Positions 1,549-24,822 of a stretch of DNA of 25,337 nucleotides are shown here, one piece after another. The position numbers were made by a program, and so were the translations under genes. The stretch is from a virus. Where the stretch lies: positions 1 to 25,337 of the IMG/VR virus record IMGVR_UViG_3300042516_002620; one strand, given 5' to 3'. The notes under the pieces were generated by a model. The model was not told where the DNA came from and ran no database searches. It saw nothing but the letters and a program-made list of their open reading frames with translations. The number at the start of each line of letters is the position of its first letter. The stretch's first letter is position 1.

Positions 1549-1576
1549 AGCCTGTCCCTAAGGGGACAGGCTTTTT
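1549..1576 (+). terminator. Strong rho-independent terminator after the major tail gene
   Basis: A perfect 10-bp stem (AGCCTGTCCC at 1549-1558, GGGACAGGCT at 1563-1572) encloses a TAAG loop and runs into five T residues (1572-1576). The next start codon follows after a single base (ATG 1578), so the hairpin fills the region where that gene's ribosome binding site should be. The best Shine-Dalgarno-like run, AAGGGGA (1560-1566), lies partly in the 3' arm. Confidence 0.9.
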
Positions 1577-1577
1577 A

Positions 1578-3190: not shown

Positions 3191-3630
3191 CAGAAAAGCT
3201 TGAAGCGCAAGCCAGGAAGCAGCTTAAGAGCCTGACGGATTGGAACGAAATCTATTTCAGGCTCTCAGCTTCTGACTTTAAAGACGAGCGATGGAGCGCT
3301 AAAAATTTTGGCCTCCAGAAGCTTGATGATGTTAAGCGTGCGCTTAAATATCTTGACCGTCATGACATCGCAAAATACAATGTTGCGAGTGTTGCCGTAG
3401 CCAAACTTGGCACAATGGCAGCAGGAATGATGGCGGGGAGAAAGAGCAAAGTGAAGCCTGAGGATTTCTTGCCGTTTGATACCAAGCAGCTCAAGAAAGA
3501 AGATGGCGTGACAGATGCAAGCTTGATTGTTCTGCAGCGTTTAATGAAGACGAGAAGAATGGACGGGCGTGTTATTGCATTGCTTGCTGATGAGATGAAG
3601 GCTTTTGCCGGGCGCAATCAAGAGCAATGA
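2657..3630 (+). CDS. Tail assembly chaperone G-T fusion made by -1 ribosomal frameshifting
   Basis: If ribosomes slip back one base on A_AAA_AAG (3157-3163), translation continues from GGC at 3163 with no stop until TGA at 3628-3630. This gives a product of about 324 residues: 169 from the first frame and 155 from the second. The second part begins GSEEEFSSVAEKL and includes TDWNEIYFRLSASDF, DDVKRALKYLDRHDIAKYN and KPEDFLPFD. The KPEDFLPF element is like those seen in the second-frame part of GT-type chaperones. There is no good independent start for this frame before an ATG at 3415, which would leave 84 codons of open, protein-like sequence unexplained. The tape measure gene follows 34 bases later. 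Confidence 0.85.
3141..3185 (+). other. Programmed -1 frameshift signal (SD stimulator, slippery site, hairpin)
   Basis: Three elements line up. AGGAGG (3141-3146) is a strong Shine-Dalgarno-like sequence inside the gene. Ten bases later lies the heptamer A_AAA_AAG (3157-3163), phased so that the zero-frame codons are GCA AAA AAG. Eight bases downstream, GAGGA (3172-3176) can pair with TCCTC (3181-3185) around an ATTC loop. E. coli dnaX uses the same heptamer with an upstream Shine-Dalgarno about 10 bases away and a downstream hairpin. The hairpin here is weak. Confidence 0.85.
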
Positions 3631-3633
3631 TTA

Positions 3634-3639
3634 TAGAAT
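3634..3639 (+). promoter_or_regulatory. Candidate late promoter -10 box (TAGAAT) for the tape measure gene
   Basis: TAGAAT, inside TATAGAATGA, lies 26 bases before the tape measure ATG counted from its last T. No -35 box is evident. It belongs to a recurring set of such boxes at 21-26 bases before starts in this window. The same TATAGAATGA string occurs on the minus strand near 25230 before the lysis cassette. Confidence 0.4.
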
Positions 3640-3664: not shown

Positions 3665-6600
3665 ATGGCAGCTCAAGACGCCGAACTGAAGCTTAAGGTA
3701 AGTCTTGACTTGGGATTTTTTAGGCAACAATTAGCAGGACTTGGACAAGCTGCGGCTGGATATAATCTTCCCGTAAGAGTGCAGTTTGATCGGCGCTCTG
3801 TGCAAAATGAGCTTAATGCTCTTGGCGCAAATATTCGACGGAGAAATTACAGGCTAACTGTCGAAACAAATTTATCCGCTGAAATAGCAAAAGCAGATAC
3901 TCTCGCCAGAAAACTTGGAGAGCTTAGCGGAAAGCTTAAAGCAACTCGCGGAGGGGGTGGAGTAGCACAAGGTCGAGAAGCAATATCTCAAATCGAAGAG
4001 GTATTACGAGGAGGCCTTTCGGGGCGTGCATTTGGCATCCAAAAAGCTCAAGAAAATATTGCAAAGCAAGCAATTTTATCTCGTCTTGAAAAAGCTTCAT
4101 TGAGCAAAGGAGGCTATAACACAGCAGGTCTTGAAAAAATTATTCGTGATCTTGGTGGCACTCCAACTGGCGGTCGCAAGGATTTAGTTGCACAAGCTAA
4201 GAGGCTTGTAGAAGAAAGCAATGGTATCACGGATGCCGTTTTCGACAATCTAAAAGACTTACAGATGAAGCTTCGTCCAATTCGTGGACAAGCTCAAACG
4301 AGCGCTGCTCGTTCAATGCCCAACCTCAACCAGATGTTGGATCGCATTGCAAATCTTACAGAAAATCCTCGCGCAGCACAGCGGATGCTGCGAATGATGC
4401 CTGAAAGCAGGCTCACAACTGATCTTATTGGCGCGGCCAATAGGCAGGCTGCATTTAGGGAGCAGTATGGCGCGCAGGGATTCAGACTTCCTGGCTTTGG
4501 AGGAGCAAAAGCTTTTGATCCTCTTTTGAAGAGCATTGCTGAAAGTTTTTCAGATTACACCCGCACTGTAAATACTTCCAATCCATGGATGGGGAAAATT
4601 GGCAGTGGCATTACCACTCTTATTAGTCGAGCATTAACGCAATCCCCTGAACAAATGTTTGGAGGCAGGGCTCCCGTCGCAAGTGCAAAGCTTTTACCTG
4701 CGGCAGGACAAACTAGCGGAACTCGCTTAATGCGCGAACAACTTGAGAGAGCAAATCTTCCTCTTCTTCAGGCCCCTAGCGTCGGCCAAGAAAATGCACC
4801 CTTAAGTAGAGCCGCCACTTATATGCTGAATAGGGCTCGACGTGCGTTAGAGCTTCCGATTGGCCCGTATTCTCCTTATGAGCCGAATCCCTTTGCTGGA
4901 AGAGCAACGGTACCAAGTCGACAATATTTTACGCCAACAATGCAAGCTGCATTGCCGCCAGTAGGCGCAACCGGCGGACGACTAAGCTTATTAGAGCAGC
5001 AATTAGCTCAGTCTCGCGGCGCGTTGGGGACAGGAGGCGGAGTCGCTGGTTCTTTATTTACTGGTCGCGCACTTATAAATCCTGGCGTATCAATGCTTTC
5101 GCCAGTTGGTATTTCTGGGAACTATAGGCAAATGGCCGCTGCTTTAGCAAATCAAGCAGCTAATCCTGCATTGGCACATCGACAAATTGCAGATATTGGC
5201 TTCGGAGGCGTGCCAACTGCTGCCACTGGGATGTCTGGACAAGCATTGAATCGGGCTTTAAACCAAGCTTTCCTACAGCGCAGAGGGCTTGGTATTGGAG
5301 GCGGGCAATCATTGCCTATTTTCAATGCTCCCGGCGTAGCAGTGCAGCAAAATATCCCCGGCATGGCTTACCAAATGGGAGGCGGTGGACTGGGAGGGTC
5401 AATGGGAATGTTCCCAAGTGCGGGAATGATGGGACCATCAAGCCCGTTGACGATCAATGCTCAGAGCAGCATGTTTGGCGGTGGTGGAGCCATGCCTCCT
5501 GGAGGAGGCGGTGGCGGCGCAGGAGGAATGGGCGGGATGGGCGGCTTTGGTCGTGCATTGGGAGGCGTTAATCTTCCTGGCGCAGGAGCCATTCGTGAAC
5601 TTGGTGGAGAATTTGCTTTTGCTACACAACAGGTATTGCTTTTTGGTCAAGCGTACAAATTATTGGCATTTGTTCAAAATTTTCCAGCGCAAGTTGGAGA
5701 AGCGGTTAGCCAACTGCAAAGCTTCAGAAATACATTGAATAGCGTCACTGGAAGCGCCGAAGAAGCGGGCGACGCCAATGAATTTATTCTTGCGGCAGTT
5801 GAAAAATACAATATTCCGTTGCAGTCAGCTCGTGATGGCTTTGTGAAGCTTTTTGCTTCTATGGAGCCAGCCGGATTTGCTGCAGGCGAAATCCAAAACC
5901 TATTTCTTGGTATTACAAAAGCTGCTGCCACTTATGGTTTAAGCGCAGACAAAGTTGATCGTGTAAATTATGCTTTTGCTCAAATGGCAAGCAAAGGCCA
6001 AGTCATGAGCGAAGAGCTTAAGGGACAGCTTGGCGATGTACTGCCAGGAGCAATGGGTATTTTCGCTGAAGCTGCTGGCTTTACAGGTCCAGATGCCATT
6101 CAGAAATTCAACAAAGCTCTTGAAGATGGCGTGTACAAAGGCGGCGAAATGCGCAAACTTTTGAAAAACGTAGCGGATGGTATGAATAAAGAATTTGGAC
6201 CTGGCGCAGAAGGGGCTGCGAAAACATTCCAAGGTTCAATCAATCGCATGCAAAATGCAATCAAGAGTTTTTACGAAAGCTTTGAGCCTGCTGCCATTAG
6301 CGTGCTAAATCAAGTGGCAGTACCCTTGGTTAGTACACTAAAGAATATTACAGCCGGCATAAATGCTTATTTTCAGGGGCAAACAGCAGCTACGCCAGAA
6401 GCTCAAAAATTTGCAAATGCCTTGCAAGTAATTGTGCCGGTGATTAGCGGCATCGCTAAGAATGCTACAATTGTTGCCACTCAATTAGGATTAATGGCTG
6501 GAGTATTTGGCTCTGCTGCCATTCAGATTGGGAGACTATTATCTCTTCCTATAGTTGGCTACCTCGCATCAACTTATGCGCAAGTTTTAATCCTGACTAC

Positions 6601-9403
6601 TGCTTTTAATTTCCTTGCGAAAAGCGCTATTGGTGCTGCTATAGTTGCAATCTCTCAATTTATCGCGAAGGGCATTGTTTACGCGCAAGTATCGCTTGGC
6701 ATGCGTGTTGCCACGCAGCAAACGACCGTAGCAATGTATCAGTTTGGCACAGCAGTACAAACTGTAATGATTAAGACTGTCATTGGGATTGCCCTTGTTG
6801 CAATTAGTGCTTTAATTGCAAAATTTGTGGAACTTCAGAATGCCATGGCATCAGTGTCTGGCCAATCCAGGCAAATGCAAGATGCTGCTAAGGCATCCGC
6901 AAAAATGGGCGACGTAGCAGGCGTCAAGGAGGCAATCGGAAACATGGAAGATCGAGTGCAAACTTATAAAAAACTTAAAGGAGAGCTTGATAAAGTAATT
7001 GGCGACGAGCATACTTATGGCTTTTACCGTGAAATCCCATCTGCATTGGCGGGAGAATTAATGTCGCTAGGCCTTATAGTAGAAAGTTCAATGAGAAAAG
7101 TCGGGGCCGGATATAAAGTTAAAATAGGCGACTTGCGGGACGCTTATAATTTAGCCACGAAAAATGTTTCCGAATTCAATAAGGCTATTGATAGTTCTCA
7201 AGCACTTGTTGGTCAAGCACAGAAGAAAAATCAGCAGCTTAAGCAGCAAGGAGTCGTCACGGGAGCGGCGGAAAGCGATCCTAAAGCGTTAGCAAAAGCC
7301 GCAGAAGAAGCCCGCAAGCTTGCTGATGATAAGCGTAAGTATGAAGCTGATTTAATGAAGATTAGCTCTCAGCAAGCCATAAGTTTAAATGAAATGGAAT
7401 TTGACCATTGGAAGAATCTACAACAGGCAAAATATGATTTTCTTGAAGCTGGCCAGAATGAATGGATGAGTAGAGAGCTAAAATTCCAGCGCGATCTTCA
7501 AGCGATTGAAATACGCAGAATTGAAGCAATTCGCAAAGCTCGCATTGAAACCGTAAAAGCAGAAACAGATGCGCGAGCAAGCGCTTATGTAGCGGGAGAC
7601 TCCGGTGCTGGCGGGGGTGCCGCTATGTTCGGCGCTACTGGGAGAGTTTTCAATGCTCCTGGCTGGGTGCATGGTCATTTCCAAAACATGAACCGAGAGG
7701 CATTGGTTCAAGATACTGTTGAAGTGGTGATGAAGCTTCTGCAGCAAGGCGTTAAGCCTGAATTAGGCAGCGGGCAAAAATTCACCGCTGGAATGCAGCA
7801 AGCTCAAGTGGAGCAGCTAGTGCGTCGTGGCATTGCTTCGCATAAATCGTACGCGAGTGGAATTGGGGCTATTGATGTGTTTGTTCCGCAGGGGACGCGA
7901 GTGCCAGTTGGCTTGTCAGGAGTGAGCAATCTCGGTGGCGCCGCTGGTATTTCTGGGAATCTGCCTCGTGGCACGCAATTAATGCACCTCGATCCCAGCT
8001 CGCGCTCTGGAGCGACTGGTGCAGCGCCTGCTGGAGTGCCTGCTTCAAGAATAAGAGCAGAAGCGAAGAAGGATTATGCCTCGGCGCTTGCAAGTCAAGA
8101 GGCAATTAATGCGAAAGAAAAAGAAAATCTTGCCACTAAATATGCAAATATTCAGGCGCAGCAAGAGCTTAATATTCTCATTCGAGAATATACTGCCTCC
8201 ATTGTTCCAGTGGAACAGCAAAAGCTTGAAAATACTCTCTTACAAAATCGTATTAATTTGATTTCATCCGGCGCGTTCGGAGATGCTCTCGAAACTGAGC
8301 AGAAAATTGGCGAAGCCAGAGAAAAAGCTGCTCTTGGCGTGCAAATGGCCAACGCTCAAATCGAGCAAAACAACAAACTAGTAAGAGATGGAATCATCAA
8401 GCAAGAAGAAGCAGATAAGCTAAATGCTTCTCAAGTGGAAAAGATTAAGCAGCTCACTCAGGGGCTTGAAGCTTACATCCCACTGCTAAGAGAAAGACTG
8501 AAGCTTGAGCAATCAAGTGCAGAAGCTACTTTGCGTGGTGAAATCACTCGCGCCACTCCTCTGGGAGGCATGGGACTTTCTGCTGGTTTTATTGGTCCCG
8601 CTAGCGATAGGTTTAAAGAGGCAATTGGTCGTGGAGCCACGCAAGACGAAGCGTCCCGTTTCGCTGAATTACAGAATCAACTTACTCTTCTTGAGAGCAG
8701 AAATGAAGCAATCAAACAATCTATCTATGGCATTGGCAATGCTTTTGGCGAAGCTTTAACTACTGGCGTAGCAAGTCTCGTTTCCGGCACTGCCACTGCT
8801 AAAGAAGTATTTGCAAGCTTCTTGCAAAGCGTGGGTCAAGCTTTGTCTCAAGCAGCTTCACAGATGATTGCCACTTACATTGCTATTGGCATTGCAAAGC
8901 TGTTTGCTGGTCTTGGCGGAGGCGGCGGGAATCCAGCAGGTAGCGGAGGAGGTATTTCAGACAGCCTTCCTGGAATACGTCAGTATGCAGGAGGCCTTGG
9001 AGGAGGTGGAGCACCCGGATCTATGCCATTTGCGCCACCTGCGTTTGCGAACGGCGGCATTGTTACTGGCCCCACACTTAGCCTCATTGGAGAAGGCAAG
9101 TACAACGAAGCCGTTGTCCCCCTCCCAGATGGTCGCTCCATTCCCGTGCAACTTGGTGGACGTTCTGCTCGCGATCTTATGGGCAATGGCGCCCCTGGCA
9201 TGCCTCAGGCGCCTTCTCTGAGCATGAAGTTTGAAACAACTAAGATTAATGGCGTAGAATACGTTAGCAGAGAACAATTAGAGCAGGCAATGGCAGAAAC
9301 TCGTCGCGCTTCCATTGCAGGCGGTGCTCAACGAGGCATGTCAATGACGCTCGACAAAATTAAGCAAAGCCCCTCCACTCGCTCTAGTATTGGTATCCGC
9401 TAA
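3665..9403 (+). CDS. Tail tape measure protein
   Basis: At 1912 residues this is the longest gene, and it lies directly after the chaperone pair, as tape measures do. Residues about 683-875 match the tape-measure N-terminal domain type (TIGR02675-like): FRNTLNSVTGS, YNIPLQSARDGFVKLFASM, then MSEELKGQLGDVLPGAM and a final FQGSINRMQNAIKSF. Before this lies a Gly/Met-rich linker (about 570-635). Hydrophobic segments (about 920-1060) may insert into the host membrane during DNA delivery. Charged coiled-coil stretches follow. The end has FANGGIVTGPTLSLIGEGK and NEAVVPLPDG (about 1793-1824), a common tape-measure C-terminal motif. Residues 1336-1441 hold HGHF, a D in AIDVF and LMHL, which look like scattered M23-peptidase elements. 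The protein sets tail length and may aid DNA entry. Confidence 0.93.
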   Translation: MAAQDAELKLKVSLDLGFFRQQLAGLGQAAAGYNLPVRVQFDRRSVQNELNALGANIRRRNYRLTVETNLSAEIAKADTLARKLGELSGKLKATRGGGGVAQGREAISQIEEVLRGGLSGRAFGIQKAQENIAKQAILSRLEKASLSKGGYNTAGLEKIIRDLGGTPTGGRKDLVAQAKRLVEESNGITDAVFDNLKDLQMKLRPIRGQAQTSAARSMPNLNQMLDRIANLTENPRAAQRMLRMMPESRLTTDLIGAANRQAAFREQYGAQGFRLPGFGGAKAFDPLLKSIAESFSDYTRTVNTSNPWMGKIGSGITTLISRALTQSPEQMFGGRAPVASAKLLPAAGQTSGTRLMREQLERANLPLLQAPSVGQENAPLSRAATYMLNRARRALELPIGPYSPYEPNPFAGRATVPSRQYFTPTMQAALPPVGATGGRLSLLEQQLAQSRGALGTGGGVAGSLFTGRALINPGVSMLSPVGISGNYRQMAAALANQAANPALAHRQIADIGFGGVPTAATGMSGQALNRALNQAFLQRRGLGIGGGQSLPIFNAPGVAVQQNIPGMAYQMGGGGLGGSMGMFPSAGMMGPSSPLTINAQSSMFGGGGAMPPGGGGGGAGGMGGMGGFGRALGGVNLPGAGAIRELGGEFAFATQQVLLFGQAYKLLAFVQNFPAQVGEAVSQLQSFRNTLNSVTGSAEEAGDANEFILAAVEKYNIPLQSARDGFVKLFASMEPAGFAAGEIQNLFLGITKAAATYGLSADKVDRVNYAFAQMASKGQVMSEELKGQLGDVLPGAMGIFAEAAGFTGPDAIQKFNKALEDGVYKGGEMRKLLKNVADGMNKEFGPGAEGAAKTFQGSINRMQNAIKSFYESFEPAAISVLNQVAVPLVSTLKNITAGINAYFQGQTAATPEAQKFANALQVIVPVISGIAKNATIVATQLGLMAGVFGSAAIQIGRLLSLPIVGYLASTYAQVLILTTAFNFLAKSAIGAAIVAISQFIAKGIVYAQVSLGMRVATQQTTVAMYQFGTAVQTVMIKTVIGIALVAISALIAKFVELQNAMASVSGQSRQMQDAAKASAKMGDVAGVKEAIGNMEDRVQTYKKLKGELDKVIGDEHTYGFYREIPSALAGELMSLGLIVESSMRKVGAGYKVKIGDLRDAYNLATKNVSEFNKAIDSSQALVGQAQKKNQQLKQQGVVTGAAESDPKALAKAAEEARKLADDKRKYEADLMKISSQQAISLNEMEFDHWKNLQQAKYDFLEAGQNEWMSRELKFQRDLQAIEIRRIEAIRKARIETVKAETDARASAYVAGDSGAGGGAAMFGATGRVFNAPGWVHGHFQNMNREALVQDTVEVVMKLLQQGVKPELGSGQKFTAGMQQAQVEQLVRRGIASHKSYASGIGAIDVFVPQGTRVPVGLSGVSNLGGAAGISGNLPRGTQLMHLDPSSRSGATGAAPAGVPASRIRAEAKKDYASALASQEAINAKEKENLATKYANIQAQQELNILIREYTASIVPVEQQKLENTLLQNRINLISSGAFGDALETEQKIGEAREKAALGVQMANAQIEQNNKLVRDGIIKQEEADKLNASQVEKIKQLTQGLEAYIPLLRERLKLEQSSAEATLRGEITRATPLGGMGLSAGFIGPASDRFKEAIGRGATQDEASRFAELQNQLTLLESRNEAIKQSIYGIGNAFGEALTTGVASLVSGTATAKEVFASFLQSVGQALSQAASQMIATYIAIGIAKLFAGLGGGGGNPAGSGGGISDSLPGIRQYAGGLGGGGAPGSMPFAPPAFANGGIVTGPTLSLIGEGKYNEAVVPLPDGRSIPVQLGGRSARDLMGNGAPGMPQAPSLSMKFETTKINGVEYVSREQLEQAMAETRRASIAGGAQRGMSMTLDKIKQSPSTRSSIGIR

Positions 9404-15850: not shown

Positions 15851-18800
15851 ATGGCCGATCAAAGAATCACGGAACTTGTTGAACTCTCCCAAGGGGCAGT
15901 TGCTTCTGGTGACGTACTGCCGATTGTAGATATCAGCGCCAGTCAGACCAAGAAGGTACAGGTGAAAAGCCTCATCCAGGCTGGATTTAATTTAGCGGAT
16001 TCCTCGACATTAGATATTGCAAAAATCAACCAAAGTAGCACTACAAAGATTGGTGCTACTGCCATCGCGGATGGCGCCATTACTTATGCAAAAATTCAAA
16101 ACGTTAGCGCTACAGACAAGCTTTTAGGAAGATCTTCTGCTGGCAGCGGCAACGTTGAAGAGATTGCTTGCACTTCATTTGCTCGTACTATTCTTGATGA
16201 CGCCGATGCCGCAACGGTTCGTACAACTATTGGCCTGGGGGTGGTTGCAACTGGCAATACAGTTAATACTGCTCTGATTGAAGACGAGAGCGTTACCAGT
16301 GCAAAACTAGCAAGCGGTAGCGTAACTACCGTCAAGATTGCAGACAGTGGTGTAACAAACGCAAAGCTTGCCGCAAATTCAGTTGACAGCGTACAGCTAG
16401 TTGTTAGTGGCGTAACTGCAGGAAAACTGGCTGCTGATGCTGTAGTCACCGTCAATATTGCTGACAATGCAATTACGGGCGCAAAAATTGGAGCCGCTGC
16501 GGTCAGTGGCGTTCACATCCTCGATGGAAGCATTACGCAAAGCAAGCTAGCAAGTGGAAGCATTGCTACTGCCTACATTGCCGATAGCGGAGTTACTCAA
16601 GCAAAACTCGCTGCCAATGCAGTGGCTACTGTAAATATTACAGACGGGAATGTTACTGCAGCAAAGCTTGCATCTGGCTCCGTTACGCTTGCCAAGCTTT
16701 CTCTTTCTTCTGGCGAACTTTCTGGCACTCTTATTACTGCAAGCTCTATACCTTCTGGAAGCTATGCAAGTGGTTCTATCCCCACTGCTGCCATCGCGGA
16801 TAACGCAGTCACTTTTGCAAAAATTCAACAAGTGGCTAGTGGAGTGCTGCTTGGCAGGGCTTCTGCGGGAAGTGGAAATGTAGAAGAAATCACGCTTACT
16901 GCTGCTGGCAGGGCATTGCTGGATGATGCTGATGCGAGCGCTCAGCGCACAACGCTCGGCCTTGGAACACTAGCCACACAAAATGGCACATTTTCCGGCA
17001 CATCCACTGGTACTAATACTGGCGATCAAACCATCACTCTTTCGGGAGATGTTACTGGCACAGGAACTGCCGGATTTAGCACCACCATTTCTAATGATGC
17101 CGTAACAACAGTCAAGATTCTTGATAGCGCTGTTACAACTGCAAAGATTGTTGATAGTGGAGTTACTGCAGCAAAGCTTTCTGATAATTCTGCTGTCATT
17201 GTTGCTGGCTCCACTCCTACAGGTGATGGTGATTTTATTGGTCAACAATGGCTCAATACAAATACTGGCGTTGAATACACCTGGACTGGTAGTGTTTGGC
17301 AGCGTCAAAGTGGCCTTTCGACAACTGTCGTTTCAGGAGATACTGTTTACAGTTTTGCCACTTCCTATCCTGATGCTTTTAGCGCCTCCATTGTTCCTTC
17401 TTTAAATACGCAAGTTGCTACACGCTTCTTCGCTGGTCCAGCCAGTGGAAGTGCAGATGCAGCTCCTACTTTCCGGGCCATCACGGCCAGCGATCTTCCA
17501 AAGGCCACCACCAGCGATTTAGGCGTTGCTCAAGCTGGCACTGGACTCGTTACTGTCAGTGGCGTTTTTAATCACGCCAACAGCGTGGCATCTGGCACGT
17601 ATTACAAGGTGACAGTAGATGCGCAGGGACATGTAAGCGCTGGCGCAGCCAGTCTTGTAGCAGATGACATTCCTGCTCTTTCTGCAAGCAAAATTACCAC
17701 TGGCACCTTTGGAAGTGGCTTTATTGCAGACGAATCAATTCTTGCTTCTAAGCTTGCCAACTATTCAGTTAGTCAGTTTGGCGAAGCACCGCCTGTAGCA
17801 GATTTTATTGGGCAATTCTTCTTCAATCCATTGGAGAAAGACCTCTATCTATGGGATGGTAACGTTTGGAATCCAGTGGGTATTAGTGTTGGCGAGATTA
17901 TTTTTGGTGGCACTTATAACGCCTCTGGAAATACCATTGCGAGCGTCAGCGCTGATGGCGCCGGTATCGGTCTTTCTGTTGGACAGCCACTTCCCGCCGC
18001 ATCGACCACGTTTAATCGTTATTACGTTGTAGTGGCGAGTGGAGGCACTGGCACTTCACCAGCTCCTGAAACCGTTTTACAACCGCCTGATATTCTGCTT
18101 TGCAATGGCACGGCGTGGGTGGAGCTTGACGTTAGCTCTACTTATCAATCGCAAACTGCTTCTAATGTAGCTTTTGCGCCAGCGGGAACTATTGGAAGCA
18201 CGAATGTTCAATCTGCGCTTGAAGAAGTTAACACTGAATGCCGCAATCTTAATAATGTGGCTAGTGGCATTTTGGCCACTGGTTACGGCGGTACTGGTAT
18301 TAATTCTTATACGACAGGAGACATCCTTGTTGGCAGTGGCACCACATTAGTTAAACAAGCAATTGGAACTAATGGGCAAGTGCTCACTGCTAATTCCGCG
18401 TTTGGCGGTGGTGTTCATTGGACTACGCCTGCAAGTGGCACTGTTCTTTCCGTAAGCGTCAATTCTCCTCTCACTGTTATTAGCGGCACTACCACGCCCG
18501 TTATTTCCATCCCAGACGCCACGACAAGCGTGCGTGGCACTGTCATTCTGACTGATAGTACAAGCACGACAAGCTCTTCTCTTGCTGCTACGGCCACTGC
18601 AGTAAAGAGTGCTTACGACTTAGCGAATGCAGCCCTTCCAAAGGCTGGAGGTACTATTACTGGCGAAGTGATTATTGGCAGTGCTGGCACTCTTCTTTTT
18701 GAAGGCGCTAGTGATGACGCTTTTGAAATTCAACTTGCTGCAGCAGACGCCACTGCAGACAGGATAATTACACTTCCAAATGTTACGGGAACCGTTGTTA

Positions 18801-19012
18801 CCACTGGTGACACTGGTACTGTTACAAATACGATGCTTGCTGGCAGCATTGCCGACACAAAGTTAAGCACTATTTCTACAGCAGGAAAAGTTAGCAATAG
18901 CGCCACTACTGCTACAAGCTCTAATACGGCTAGTGCAATTGTTGCGCGTGATGCTAGTGGTAATTTTTCGGCTGGAACCATTGATGCCGCAATCGATGAA
19001 GGAACATTCTGA
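15851..19012 (+). CDS. Long tail fibre protein with tandem 20-residue repeats
   Basis: The 1053-residue protein starts MADQRITELVELSQGAV and DVLPIVDISASQTKKV, a phage fibre N-terminus that I associate with virion attachment. It is low in aromatic and cysteine residues and rich in Ala, Ser, Thr, Gly and Val. Seven exact-length 20-residue repeats (about residues 138-277; the unit resembles VTTVKIADSGVTNAKLAANS) should form a beta-helical or trimeric shaft. A 59-residue block containing LLGRSSAGSGNVEE occurs twice. Two modules with a Trp-containing 'WTGSVW' or 'WDGNVW' core may be tip or carbohydrate-contacting elements. The C-terminus SAIVARDASGNFSAGTI usually leads into further domains, but here the chain ends 9 residues later. 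Confidence 0.9.
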   Translation: MADQRITELVELSQGAVASGDVLPIVDISASQTKKVQVKSLIQAGFNLADSSTLDIAKINQSSTTKIGATAIADGAITYAKIQNVSATDKLLGRSSAGSGNVEEIACTSFARTILDDADAATVRTTIGLGVVATGNTVNTALIEDESVTSAKLASGSVTTVKIADSGVTNAKLAANSVDSVQLVVSGVTAGKLAADAVVTVNIADNAITGAKIGAAAVSGVHILDGSITQSKLASGSIATAYIADSGVTQAKLAANAVATVNITDGNVTAAKLASGSVTLAKLSLSSGELSGTLITASSIPSGSYASGSIPTAAIADNAVTFAKIQQVASGVLLGRASAGSGNVEEITLTAAGRALLDDADASAQRTTLGLGTLATQNGTFSGTSTGTNTGDQTITLSGDVTGTGTAGFSTTISNDAVTTVKILDSAVTTAKIVDSGVTAAKLSDNSAVIVAGSTPTGDGDFIGQQWLNTNTGVEYTWTGSVWQRQSGLSTTVVSGDTVYSFATSYPDAFSASIVPSLNTQVATRFFAGPASGSADAAPTFRAITASDLPKATTSDLGVAQAGTGLVTVSGVFNHANSVASGTYYKVTVDAQGHVSAGAASLVADDIPALSASKITTGTFGSGFIADESILASKLANYSVSQFGEAPPVADFIGQFFFNPLEKDLYLWDGNVWNPVGISVGEIIFGGTYNASGNTIASVSADGAGIGLSVGQPLPAASTTFNRYYVVVASGGTGTSPAPETVLQPPDILLCNGTAWVELDVSSTYQSQTASNVAFAPAGTIGSTNVQSALEEVNTECRNLNNVASGILATGYGGTGINSYTTGDILVGSGTTLVKQAIGTNGQVLTANSAFGGGVHWTTPASGTVLSVSVNSPLTVISGTTTPVISIPDATTSVRGTVILTDSTSTTSSSLAATATAVKSAYDLANAALPKAGGTITGEVIIGSAGTLLFEGASDDAFEIQLAAADATADRIITLPNVTGTVVTTGDTGTVTNTMLAGSIADTKLSTISTAGKVSNSATTATSSNTASAIVARDASGNFSAGTIDAAIDEGTF
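16076..16252 (+). repeat. Duplicated 59-codon block in the fibre gene, copy 1 (copy 2 at 16805-16978)
   Basis: Both blocks encode AKIQ, then LLGR(S/A)SAGSGNVEEI, then LLDDADA-type and RTT(I/L)GLG elements in the same order. Copy 2 is one codon shorter. They flank the tandem 60-base repeats and look like an ancient internal duplication, diverged at the DNA level. Confidence 0.85.
16262..16681 (+). repeat. Seven tandem 60-base units in the fibre shaft
   Basis: Units begin at 16262, 16322, 16382, 16442, 16502, 16562 and 16622 without a length change. Each encodes two 10-residue half-repeats, with a hydrophobic-then-'D.' half and an 'AKLA.' half. Identity is clear at protein level and loose in DNA, so these are coding repeats and not a CRISPR array. 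Confidence 0.9.
17107..17196 (+). repeat. Three further 30-base half-repeats in the fibre gene
   Basis: The codons for VTTVKILDSA, VTTAKIVDSG and VTAAKLSDNS continue the half-repeat pattern of the 16262-16681 array after the second 59-codon block. Their separate position suggests that the array and block were duplicated together. Confidence 0.7.
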
Positions 19013-19024
19013 TCATTAAAAATA

Positions 19025-19080
19025 AAAGCCTTTTAGAATTGCGAAAGACTAATTAGTCTTCTGTAATTCCGAAAGGCTTT
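19025..19080. promoter_or_regulatory. Long near-perfect hairpin between the two fibre genes
   Basis: AAAGCCTTT (19025-19033) pairs with AAAGGCTTT (19072-19080), GAATT (19036-19040) with AATTC (19065-19069), and AAGACT (19045-19050) with AGTCTT (19055-19060) around an AATT loop. The two mismatches fall at 19035/19070 and 19044/19061, with a few G-T pairs, so about 26 pairs form one continuous stem. The inner 16 bases form a perfect palindrome. GAAAGG (19071-19076), the only plausible ribosome binding site for the ATG at 19085, is in the 3' arm. Termination, RNase III cleavage or translational control are possible roles. Confidence 0.7.
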
Positions 19081-19084
19081 AATC

Positions 19085-20791
19085 ATGGCTGGTGTTCTTC
19101 AGCATCTGCGTTCATCAACGCTTAACAAGCGTCCTAATCCTGCTTCCATGGTTGATGGTCAATTGGCCATTAACTATGCCAGTGGTAGCCCTGGAGCGTA
19201 TTTCAAGGACAGCAACGGTAATCTTGTCAAAGTGGGGCCTGTGCATGTAGGGAGTGGTGCTCCCAATGCAAGTCCCGCGAGTGGTGGCACTGCAGGTAAC
19301 AGCCTTGGCGAGCAATGGCTGGATACTAGCGGTGGTACCTATGTTTTTAAAGTTTGGGATGGTTCTGCCTGGCGCAGTGAATCCGGCACTTTTGTAGATG
19401 TTGCTGGTGACACGATGACCGGCGATCTTACAGCGCCGGCGTTCATTCCAAACGGCAGCACCGTTCCCACGAATGGGGTTTATCTACCTGCCGCAAACAC
19501 CGTAGCCATCTCGACTAATTCCTCTGAGCGCATCCGTATTGGTGCAAACGGGGAGATTGGGATTGGCGGCGCAAATTACGGCACCAGCGGTCAGGTGCTA
19601 ACCAGTGCTGGCTCTGGCGCAGCACCGACATGGCAGACACCAGCAGCAGGCAACGCGGACAAAATTGAGGAAGGCAATAGCTCTGCCGAAGTCATCGACA
19701 CCGGCAGCGATGGCCGGTTTGTGGTGACGACGGAAGGGACGGAGAGAGCGCGTGTTGATAGCTCCGGCAGGTTGTTAGTTGGTACGTCTACGAGTCGTGG
19801 AGGATGGTTCAATACAAGTGGACAAGATTCGCTTATTCAAACCGAAACAACCACACAGAACGTATTCTCCGGTGTTCAAAACTCAAATAGCGCTCTTGGT
19901 CCTTGGATTCTTTTAGGTAAATCTCGCGGGACAACCGCTGGAGCAGTTACTGCTGTTCAAAATGATGATCCTTTGGGCGGGATTACTTTTCAGGGTGCGG
20001 ATGGCACCGAGATGGTTGACGGCTGCCGCATCCAAGCGTATGTTGATGGAACTCCTGGCGCTAATGATCTTCCGACAAGATTAGTCTTCGCCACAACTGC
20101 GGATGGGGCGAGTTCTCCGACGGAGCGGCTGAGGATTACGAGTGATGGCGATACATTTATCGGCAAAACCGGCTTTAGTTCGTCAACTGCTGGCATTGAA
20201 CTGCAAAAGGCTGGTGCAGTTTATGCAACTAGGGATGGTAGTGTTTGCGGCTTGTGGAACCGCCTTACCAGCGACGGCGACATAATAATTATCCAACAGG
20301 CTTCTGTCACAGAGGGATCAATCTCCGTCTCCGGCACCACCGTCTCCTACAACGGTGCTCACCTCAGCCGCTGGTCACAACTTCCTTCTGGCGCAGAACG
20401 CACCGAGATCCTGCGCGGTTCCGTTCTCTCCAACGTCGATGAGATGTGCGAATGGGGCGATGAAGAAAACGAACAGCTCAACCGGATGAAGGTGAGCGAC
20501 GTTGAAGGCGACAAGAACGTGTCGGGCGTGTTCCAGGCTTGGGACGATGACGATGACACCTATACCAATGATTTCTACTGTGCGATGACGGGTGACTTCA
20601 TCATCCGTATTGGTGCTGGTGTAACGATTGAGCAAGGTGATCTGCTCATGTCCGCTGGTGATGGCACCGCCAAGCCCCAAGACGATGATCTGATTCGTTC
20701 CTGCACTGTCGCCAAGGTCACCAGCACCACAGTGAGCTGCACCTACGACGACGGCAGCTACTGCGTGCCTTGTGTACTCATGGCCTGCTGA
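19085..20791 (+). CDS. Second tail fibre / receptor-binding protein
   Basis: The 568-residue protein begins LRSSTLNKRPNPASMVDGQL and NYASGSPGAYFKDSNG, an N-terminal attachment layout found in many phage fibres. A module with GEQWLDTSGGTY and VWDGSAW follows (about 77-102), related to two modules in the previous fibre. The central part carries repeated SxERxRI(G/T)(A/S)(N/D)G elements (SSERIRIGANGEIGIGG, TERARVDSSGRLLVG, TERLRITSDGDTFIG), typical of trimeric beta-solenoid shafts. The C-terminal 190 residues (HLSRWSQLPSG to the end) include EDDDD-like acidic runs and a Cys-rich end (SYCVPCVLMAC), similar to C-terminal fibre domains I associate with marine phages and with self-cleaving (Peptidase_G2-like) chaperone tips. 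The second half of the gene is visibly more G+C-rich than its neighbours. Confidence 0.85.
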   Translation: MAGVLQHLRSSTLNKRPNPASMVDGQLAINYASGSPGAYFKDSNGNLVKVGPVHVGSGAPNASPASGGTAGNSLGEQWLDTSGGTYVFKVWDGSAWRSESGTFVDVAGDTMTGDLTAPAFIPNGSTVPTNGVYLPAANTVAISTNSSERIRIGANGEIGIGGANYGTSGQVLTSAGSGAAPTWQTPAAGNADKIEEGNSSAEVIDTGSDGRFVVTTEGTERARVDSSGRLLVGTSTSRGGWFNTSGQDSLIQTETTTQNVFSGVQNSNSALGPWILLGKSRGTTAGAVTAVQNDDPLGGITFQGADGTEMVDGCRIQAYVDGTPGANDLPTRLVFATTADGASSPTERLRITSDGDTFIGKTGFSSSTAGIELQKAGAVYATRDGSVCGLWNRLTSDGDIIIIQQASVTEGSISVSGTTVSYNGAHLSRWSQLPSGAERTEILRGSVLSNVDEMCEWGDEENEQLNRMKVSDVEGDKNVSGVFQAWDDDDDTYTNDFYCAMTGDFIIRIGAGVTIEQGDLLMSAGDGTAKPQDDDLIRSCTVAKVTSTTVSCTYDDGSYCVPCVLMAC

Positions 20792-23323: not shown

Positions 23324-23881
23324 ATGTCAATCATAGAAGAATGGCGACCCGTCGTTGGATACGAGGATCTTTACGAGGTGAGCGATCAAGGGCGCGTCAG
23401 GAGCCTTGATCGCTTATGCAAAAGTGATAAGCGCAGCGACCAGTGGATGAAGGGGAAAATCTTACGTCCCAAAATCAATCCGCATCGACAAAATCGCTGC
23501 ACAGTTGCGCTTACAAGGAAAGGTGTACCTTCTTACCCTTACATTTCGCGGTTAGTCTTAACTGCCTTTGTTGGTCCTGCGCCAGAAGGTCACGATGCGG
23601 CGCACTGGGACGGCGATCCAACGAATAATCGCTTAGGCAATTTGAGATGGGCTACTGTTAGCGAAAATATGTCCGATAAAAAGAGGCATGGCACGGATCC
23701 GTCTGGCATGAGAAATGCAATGGCGAAGTTAACAGATGAACAAGCTTTATATATAAAACGCAATTACAGACGCACCTCGTACCACGACAGTAACGCCCTT
23801 GAACTAGCGAGGCAATTTAATATATCAAGAGCGATTGTTATTCGAATTGCCAATAATACAAGATGGGGACACTTGGCCTAG
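23324..23881 (+). CDS. Free-standing NUMOD4 / HNH homing endonuclease
   Basis: The 185-residue protein begins with a NUMOD4-type DNA-binding motif: EEWRPVVGYEDLYEVSDQGR followed by VRSLDR. Residues about 60-115 form an HNH_3-type nuclease: YPYISRLVLTAFVGP, GHDAAHWDGDPTNNRLGNLRWAT. His94 and the downstream Asn and Trp are in place. The first His of the usual vHRLV element is Ser75, so activity is uncertain. The C-terminus (LTDEQALYIKRNY, LELARQFNISRAIVIRIANN) is a helix-turn-helix-like DNA-binding end. The gene stands alone between minus-strand genes, opposite to them, which fits an insertion. Its stop overlaps the endolysin stop as CTAG (23878-23881). Confidence 0.85.
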   Translation: MSIIEEWRPVVGYEDLYEVSDQGRVRSLDRLCKSDKRSDQWMKGKILRPKINPHRQNRCTVALTRKGVPSYPYISRLVLTAFVGPAPEGHDAAHWDGDPTNNRLGNLRWATVSENMSDKKRHGTDPSGMRNAMAKLTDEQALYIKRNYRRTSYHDSNALELARQFNISRAIVIRIANNTRWGHLA

Positions 23882-24822
23882 CCCTCTTGCCAAACAGAGC
23901 AAAATATTTTGCCTTTCTTGTAAAGCGGAAGAATTTTATCGCGGAGATCAATATTTTTTAGACGCAAACATCCGTGTGTAGGTACAAGTGGTTGATTAGG
24001 CGCCCATGCACCTGGCCAGCCGTTAGCGCTGCCACCGCCATGACATGCAATGCCAGCTCTCCCATTATTTCTTTCTTGTCCCTCTAGATCAATCATGTCA
24101 AACGTGTACCAACCGTAAGACATAAGAGTGCGGTCGTAAGCGGGTTTATCGCCCACTCGTTCGTAGTCTTTATAAACCTCTCCGAATAGGTAGACCCCTG
24201 GAGGACAGTCTGAATTTGTGATTTTCCATTCAAAATCACTGTATTGCCCACGAGCGAGACACGGGATTTCCCACAAAAGCTTTCCTTCAAAAGAGAAAGC
24301 TTTCATGGTTTCCACTGCATCGTTCACAATTAAATGTGAATCGCCTTTCTTAAAACCAAAATCTTGAGGACGTTTTTTAGGGCCAACCATAGTAAAAGCG
24401 GTGCTCTCAGGAGCGTATTCCTTCATGAGCTTAGACAGCTTTGCAGGATAATCTGGATCAGTGGCATACGATTGCTCCTTGAGCATTCGCGCTGCTGCAT
24501 AGCGATTTGGAGCATTATTAATGCCCTTGAAATGACGATAGTCTTTATGCCAACGAGTGATCAAATATTCAATGCAAGCAGCAAGACTAGGAAAATCAAT
24601 GAATCCAGCTTTGATGGTCACCCATTGGCCATCGTAAAATTCTTGAGTGGTAGTAGTCGTGCCTTCGCCTTTTGCACCGATGTAATTGTGGGCGCCAGAC
24701 ACGTGATTGCCAAAGCCACTCTCTAAGCAGCATTGCGCTGCTACCAATTCAGGATAGCGAGCGCCATATTTACGGGCAATTTGGAAGCATTCGTTCCAAA
24801 AAGCCCGATTAGATGGCCACAT
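23878..24822 (-). CDS. Endolysin: glucosaminidase (GH73-like) fused to an L,D-transpeptidase (YkuD-like) domain
   Basis: The 314-residue minus-strand product has two domains. Residues about 8-125 carry YPELVAAQCCLESGFGNHVS and NYIGAKG, which match the FlgJ/LytG-type glucosaminidase fold, with Glu34 as the probable catalytic acid. Residues about 165-310 end in CHGGGSANGWPGAW and PTHGCLRLKN, the HG...(S/T)HGC.R signature of YkuD L,D-transpeptidases, with His261, His283 and Cys285. There is no signal peptide. It starts four bases after the stop of a small membrane gene, with AAGGA as a ribosome binding site. Cleaving the glycan and acting on peptide cross-links, it would open the host wall at lysis; the second activity could also be an amidase-like or binding role. 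Confidence 0.85.
   Translation of the reverse strand: MWPSNRAFWNECFQIARKYGARYPELVAAQCCLESGFGNHVSGAHNYIGAKGEGTTTTTQEFYDGQWVTIKAGFIDFPSLAACIEYLITRWHKDYRHFKGINNAPNRYAAARMLKEQSYATDPDYPAKLSKLMKEYAPESTAFTMVGPKKRPQDFGFKKGDSHLIVNDAVETMKAFSFEGKLLWEIPCLARGQYSDFEWKITNSDCPPGVYLFGEVYKDYERVGDKPAYDRTLMSYGWYTFDMIDLEGQERNNGRAGIACHGGGSANGWPGAWAPNQPLVPTHGCLRLKNIDLRDKILPLYKKGKIFCSVWQEG

Follow-up and report, generated by a model that had tools for sequence, protein, structure and literature searches.

The combination of a translational lock with a promoter is documented for T4 genes e, soc, 49 and I-TevI and for Aeh1 mobE (PMC3014915, PMC2988022). At T4 gene e, long transcripts sequester the Shine-Dalgarno (SD) sequence in a helix, the late promoters lie in the DNA of the 5' strand, and the shorter transcripts are translated (PMC3014915). 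I-TevI, segB and Aeh1 mobE are preceded by a very stable hairpin whose 3' arm carries the ribosome binding site (RBS) about 8 nt before the AUG, and a late promoter is placed such that its RNA lacks the 5' arm (PMC2988022). T4 genes 25 and 38, which are tail genes, have a conserved hairpin just before the AUG, located between the SD and the AUG, where it aids translation (PMC3014915). Most known RBS locks with an internal promoter come from T-even phages, in which they hold back lysis or homing enzymes, and a literature search found no hairpin-hidden RBS at a tail-fibre gene. The hairpin described here stands at the junction of two tail-fibre genes. It shares with genes 25 and 38 its place just before the start codon of a tail gene, but its SD is inside the stem. 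Gene e uses gp55 late promoters (TATAAATA), whereas the promoter predicted here has a sigma-70-like TAGAAT; the e lock keeps early and late expression of a lysis gene apart, whereas both neighbours here are tail-fibre structural genes. I-TevI, segB and mobE differ in being homing endonuclease genes in T-even early or middle units and have no homology to this locus.

The junction lies in a siphovirus tail module carried by a 25.3-kb virus record, IMG/VR IMGVR_UViG_3300042516_002620, whose positions 1 to 25,337 were analysed and are called the window. Gene annotation of the window identified a major tail protein, a tape-measure protein, a central fibre, two further fibre genes, a structural protein, an HNH endonuclease and an endolysin (Table 1). 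The HNH endonuclease gene and the glucosaminidase-type endolysin gene run towards each other and share four bases. Judged by its tape-measure protein, the virus is nearest, among isolates, to Synechococcus phage S-CBS4 (42% identity, over only part of the protein); a structural gene nearby also matches Synechococcus phages. Because of these two matches, a cyanobacterial host is likely. The upstream (fibre 1) and downstream (fibre 2) genes are separated by 72 bases, of which the hairpin takes 56. The fibre 2 N-terminus, MAGVLQHLRSS, is conserved among relatives, and the proteins diverge after about codon 150.

Table 1. Features of the fibre 1/fibre 2 junction and of other sites in the window
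Feature	Position	Strand	Description
Tape-measure protein gene	3665-9403		
Fibre 1 gene	15851-19012	+	1053 aa; PHROG tail fibre hits, Pfam Phage_fiber_2
Fibre 1 stop codon	19010-19012	+	TGA; protein ends ...DEGTF
Hairpin 5' arm	19025-19050	+	AAAGCCTTTTAGAATTGCGAAAGACT
Putative -10 box	19034-19039	+	TAGAAT; leader enrichment, one box per lineage at the junction
Predicted transcription start	19046	+	7th base downstream of the box, from the usual -10 to +1 distance
Hairpin loop	19051-19054	+	AATT (AAUU in RNA); top of hairpin palindromic, AAGACTAATTAGTCTT
Hairpin 3' arm	19055-19080	+	varies, with pairing maintained through G-U exchanges and one compensatory change of A-U to G-C
Shine-Dalgarno	19071-19076	+	GAAAGG; 8 nt before ATG, wholly paired in stem
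Fibre 2 start codon	19085-19087	+	ATG
Fibre 2 gene	19085-20791	+	568 aa; PHROG tail fibre hits
Terminator-like hairpin	1550-1577		GCCTGTCCCTAAGGGGACAGGC TTTTTA; directly before ATG 1578
Long imperfect hairpin	3214-3275		AAGCAGCTTAAGAGCCTGA ... TTTCAGGCTCTCAGCTTCT; in 224-base gap before 3415
Candidate promoter box	3634-3639		TAGAAT; 31 nt before tape-measure start
HNH endonuclease and endolysin genes	23324-24822	+ and -	convergent

The initial annotation had described about 26 pairs with two mismatches. The mismatches and the extent, from 19025 to 19080, were borne out, but 24 pairs were counted, in blocks of 10, 8 and 6 divided by single A·C mismatches at 19035·19070 and 19044·19061. As it also stated, the stem ends four bases before the fibre 2 ATG and the GAAAGG SD is within the 3' arm. 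No other close inverted repeat in the window is as long, and among its fully intergenic hairpins this one is the strongest, despite 31% G+C. The RNA fold of 19015-19100 has a predicted energy of -28.1 kcal/mol (-27.8 kcal/mol for the hairpin alone), compared with a mean of -12.4 for 200 dinucleotide shuffles, none of which was as stable (z = -6.0). Rfam gave no match at the gathering score for the window or for nine loci with related leaders.

GAAAGG pairs with CCUUUU of the 5' arm (SD duplex energy -3.5 kcal/mol), and opening the SD and AUG is calculated to cost 17.2 kcal/mol, among the highest values for gene starts in the window. In the modelled long transcript the SD is thus sequestered in a stable helix, as in locks of the T4 e and I-TevI type. 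A translational lock, one of several roles initially suggested for the hairpin, is supported by this folding cost of 17 kcal/mol and by selection for the helix (see below). We consider the best explanation to be an RNA lock whose 5' arm also holds a promoter, with a probability of roughly one half. A plain RBS-sequestering hairpin lacking an internal promoter, tuning fibre 2 below fibre 1 and possibly opened by a protein or other trigger, would draw on the same fully paired SD and 17 kcal/mol opening cost. Such a reading is distinctly unlikely, as a lock this stable would nearly abolish translation unless relieved, and it leaves the frozen, TAGAAT-bearing 5' arm described below unexplained.

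With its 56 nt folded out, the hairpin brings the fibre 1 stop to about 16 nt from the fibre 2 ATG and a GAAGG in the last codons of fibre 1 to about 25 nt, a geometry that might bridge the gap for re-initiation, with the split ribosome sites of T4 genes 25 and 38 as precedent (PMC3014915). We regard such a bridge as highly improbable: 25 nt is wider than is usual (the corresponding distances are 11 for T4 gene 25 and 5 for gene 38), the protein sequence dictates GAAGG, which is missing in relatives with HP2 hairpins (DDG), and the perfectly placed internal SD would become redundant. Stop-codon read-through or a mini-ORF across the hairpin was rejected because spacing and frames vary.

The GCC/GGC stem base followed by UUU(U) could also belong to a leaky intrinsic terminator or attenuator after fibre 1, and an A-rich 5' flank, which gives a U-rich minus-strand tail in many variants, could make it bidirectional, as the initial annotation had raised. 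The terminator scores speak against this, and we think it very unlikely. On the coding strand they averaged -11 (-21 for the window) and were above zero in 3 and below zero in 20 of 23 variants, whereas scores of +6 to +31 were obtained for four ordinary terminators of the window. The minus-strand U-tract is not conserved, and scores for that strand exceeded zero in 12 of the 23.

Conservation was counted from scans with the fibre 2 N-terminus and the fibre 1 C-terminus, in which the hairpin was not used as bait; hairpin pattern searches, being biased towards the 5' arm, were left out of the counts. The fibre 2 N-terminus scan yielded 43 loci, of which 42, the window included, could be read across the junction, and the hairpin was present at the fibre 1/fibre 2 junction in 40. 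The independent fibre 1 C-terminus scan found the hairpin in 36 loci and found it missing from several. In near-complete relatives of about 75 kb it is single-copy per genome. Two loci, L145 and L148, have the gene pair without the long hairpin. Their lineage branches from within the hairpin-bearing clade, where the hairpin has thus been replaced on one occasion; it is useful but not essential. Beyond these relatives, isolate phages gave no DNA match at this junction and only chance matches in a hairpin search with E up to 10, the S-CBS4 gp047/gp048 junction has only a short palindrome, and the bacterial genomes searched gave no match.

Standard pairs fill 97.3% of pair cells across 23 distinct sequences, compared with 29-67% when one arm was slid by 1-3 bases. 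One pair has changed on both sides from A-U to G-C in four sequences, a result reached by none of 500 shuffles; for the rest, with so little variation in the 5' arm, column-wise covariation did not exceed that of the shuffles. The other changes fall mostly in the 3' arm, where they convert U-A to U-G or G-C to G-U. G-U occurs at 9 pairs (69 cells, 22 of them from one constant U-G pair) and A-C at 4 pairs (6 cells); A-C on the coding strand would be G-U on the other strand. Because the variation keeps the helix mostly via coding-strand G-U, selection appears to act on the coding-strand RNA helix, the G-U excess being support rather than proof. The initial annotation had held that related phages with the gene pair, but without the hairpin and without compensatory changes, would count against it. 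The outcome is divided: L145 and L148 lack the long hairpin yet keep the -10-like box, and elsewhere a change in one arm is either matched in the opposite arm or tolerated by it.

The G-U-compatible changes, which favour RNA and one strand, also bear on a DNA-level element, such as a hot spot for fibre-exchange recombination, a cruciform or a protein-binding palindrome. Identity is high through the hairpin and the fibre 2 N-terminus and the fibre C-termini are mosaic, as such an element would have it, but the mosaic boundary, where identity among relatives drops from about 0.7-0.85 to 0.35, is near 19535, about 450 nt into fibre 2 and not at the hairpin. A recombination point at the hairpin, another of the initial suggestions, therefore does not fit this profile, and a DNA-level role is barely credible. 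No evidence was found for a homing-endonuclease target at the hairpin.

The two arms have evolved unequally. The first 17 bases of the 5' arm are invariant in the unbiased set, mean pairwise identity is 0.97 for the 5' arm and 0.86 for the 3' arm, and 3 of 24 positions vary in the former versus 13 of 24 in the latter (Fisher p 0.005). Third codon positions of the flanking genes, with identities of 0.61 and 0.74, are far below the 5' arm. Because pairing alone would constrain both arms, the 5' arm probably has a second job besides pairing.

The main rival explanation is that RNase III cuts the approximately 24-bp helix, splitting the fibre 1 and fibre 2 messages and freeing the SD; a remnant of the hairpin would then shield the 3' end of the fibre 1 message, like those at T7 processing sites. 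The RNase III processing hairpins of T7 are long imperfect intergenic helices between late genes, and cyanobacteria possess RNase III enzymes. The present hairpin resembles those of T7 in being intergenic, about two helical turns long and interrupted by few mismatches, with conserved pairing, and its 24 pairs with two single mismatches exceed the helix of at least about 20 bp expected of a substrate. Cleavage would further explain how a locked gene ever gets translated. The hairpin differs from the T7 sites in its SD in the 3' arm and its frozen 5' arm. While the helix length thus agrees with the RNase III site proposed initially, neither the frozen 5' arm opposite a drifting 3' arm nor the retention of the -10-like box after loss of the long hairpin is explained by it, and we consider both the cleavage and the protective remnant possible but unlikely.

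TAGAAT, correctly placed inside the 5' arm but mentioned only in passing in the initial annotation, is key to the interpretation. In four relatives of about 75 kb, it ranks 1, 9, 7 and 1 of about 4,050 hexamers for enrichment in gene leaders; one of the sites counted falls inside tRNA-like sequence. Other conserved TAGAAT sites are found 30 nt upstream of the tape-measure gene and ahead of several other genes. The copy before the tape-measure gene of the window is kept in four relatives and is a candidate promoter of the same type.

At the fibre junction, each of six lineages, three of them without the long hairpin, contains exactly one TA[GT]A[AC]T. The joint shuffle probability of this one-box-per-lineage pattern is 1.5e-6, which is optimistic because the pattern was refined after inspection of the sequences; a pre-set comparison of the whole 5' arm with the hairpin-less gaps gave p values of 0.004, 0.62 and 0.18, significant in one of three lineages. 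The boxes in relatives without the long hairpin are TATAATTTGTAAAGAC (L148/L145), TAGAATTAAAG (L270) and TAGAATTTAAAG (L269), and TAGACT is found in relatives with other hairpins (L267, L268, L282, L278, L273 and L313). In every lineage but L270, the predicted start precedes the ATG by 35-47 nt; in L270 the distance is 18 nt and the next gene differs. No -35 box was found at the usual spacings upstream of TAGAAT, and a general sigma-70 scan does not pick the site. The four relatives of about 75 kb contain no second copy of the whole 5' arm, and since the arm is unique in the genome, a repeated phage promoter was rejected. On these sequence comparisons the 5' arm looks like it contains a promoter, with a predicted start inside the hairpin.

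Under the preferred reading, a lock with a promoter in its 5' arm, RNA reading through from fibre 1 would contain both arms and form the 24-pair hairpin, and pairing of CCUUUU with GAAAGG would leave fibre 2 hardly translated from it, a repression that we infer from the energies. RNA from the predicted promoter would lack the 5' arm below the top pairs, leaving a small 5'-terminal stem-loop and an exposed SD, and the dosage of fibre 2 would be set by its own promoter and not by the fibre 1 transcript. For the window, the modelled cost of opening the SD and AUG falls from about 17-18 kcal/mol in read-through RNA to 2.8 kcal/mol in RNA from the predicted start, and for the variants of this hairpin (HP1) that were tested, from 15-19 to 2.8-4.2 kcal/mol. 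Provided that transcription begins at the predicted position, the short transcript would be unable to form the lock. Here the lock would uncouple the doses of two fibre proteins encoded in a single operon, and such a case at a tail-fibre gene of unrelated cyanophage-like siphoviruses would show the trick to be more general. The 40 natural variants, the nested loss and the prediction of a start at 19046 offer ready material for arm-swap tests.

At the fibre junction of sister lineages (L267:1405-1476, L268, L282:662-734 and L278:1390-1462), a hairpin of another, unrelated family, HP2a, lies directly against the ATG. Its outer stem, GATTAAGA/TCTTAATC, shows the paired changes GATTAAAA/TTTTAATC and GATTGAAA/TTTCAATC, and its inner stem is GTCTC/GAGAC with a bulged GUUAA; a variant, HP2b, is present in L273 and L313. 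HP2a had no match in an Rfam search. In the HP2a hairpins, the predicted start barely alters the opening cost. Tentatively, the region around the fibre 2 start may be a rapidly evolving control module in which a -10-type promoter is conserved and RBS-hiding hairpins (HP1, HP2a and HP2b) have been rebuilt around it, in every case decoupling fibre 2 from the polycistronic structural message; we hold this to be rather doubtful. If true, phages would have in it a widespread means of adjusting how much of a fibre protein is made, or when, without regard to its operon.

Other hairpins were noted in the window and its relatives. A small bulged hairpin stands directly before other fibre genes in L040 (before 4995), L068 (before 4318), L076 (before 4220), L024 (before 4989) and L179 (before 3503). 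Its pattern is UUCC-GGCC-loop-GGC-GUUAA-GGAAUG; one part of the SD is paired and another falls in the bulge. It may represent a leader motif common to fibre genes of these phages. In the window, a terminator-like hairpin after the major tail gene has a terminator score of +31 and an opening cost of 19.8 kcal/mol and is a possible attenuator, and another long imperfect hairpin lies in the gap before 3415 (Table 1). A conserved intergenic composite hairpin, GAGCTTAAGCCTCTGAAGCGATTAGCGCTTGTTAATCGCTTCACGCTTAAGCC, occurs in L238 at about 499-560 (G001 60499) and, in reversed orientation, in G009 at 73210, and it adjoins a tRNA-like stretch in related genomes.
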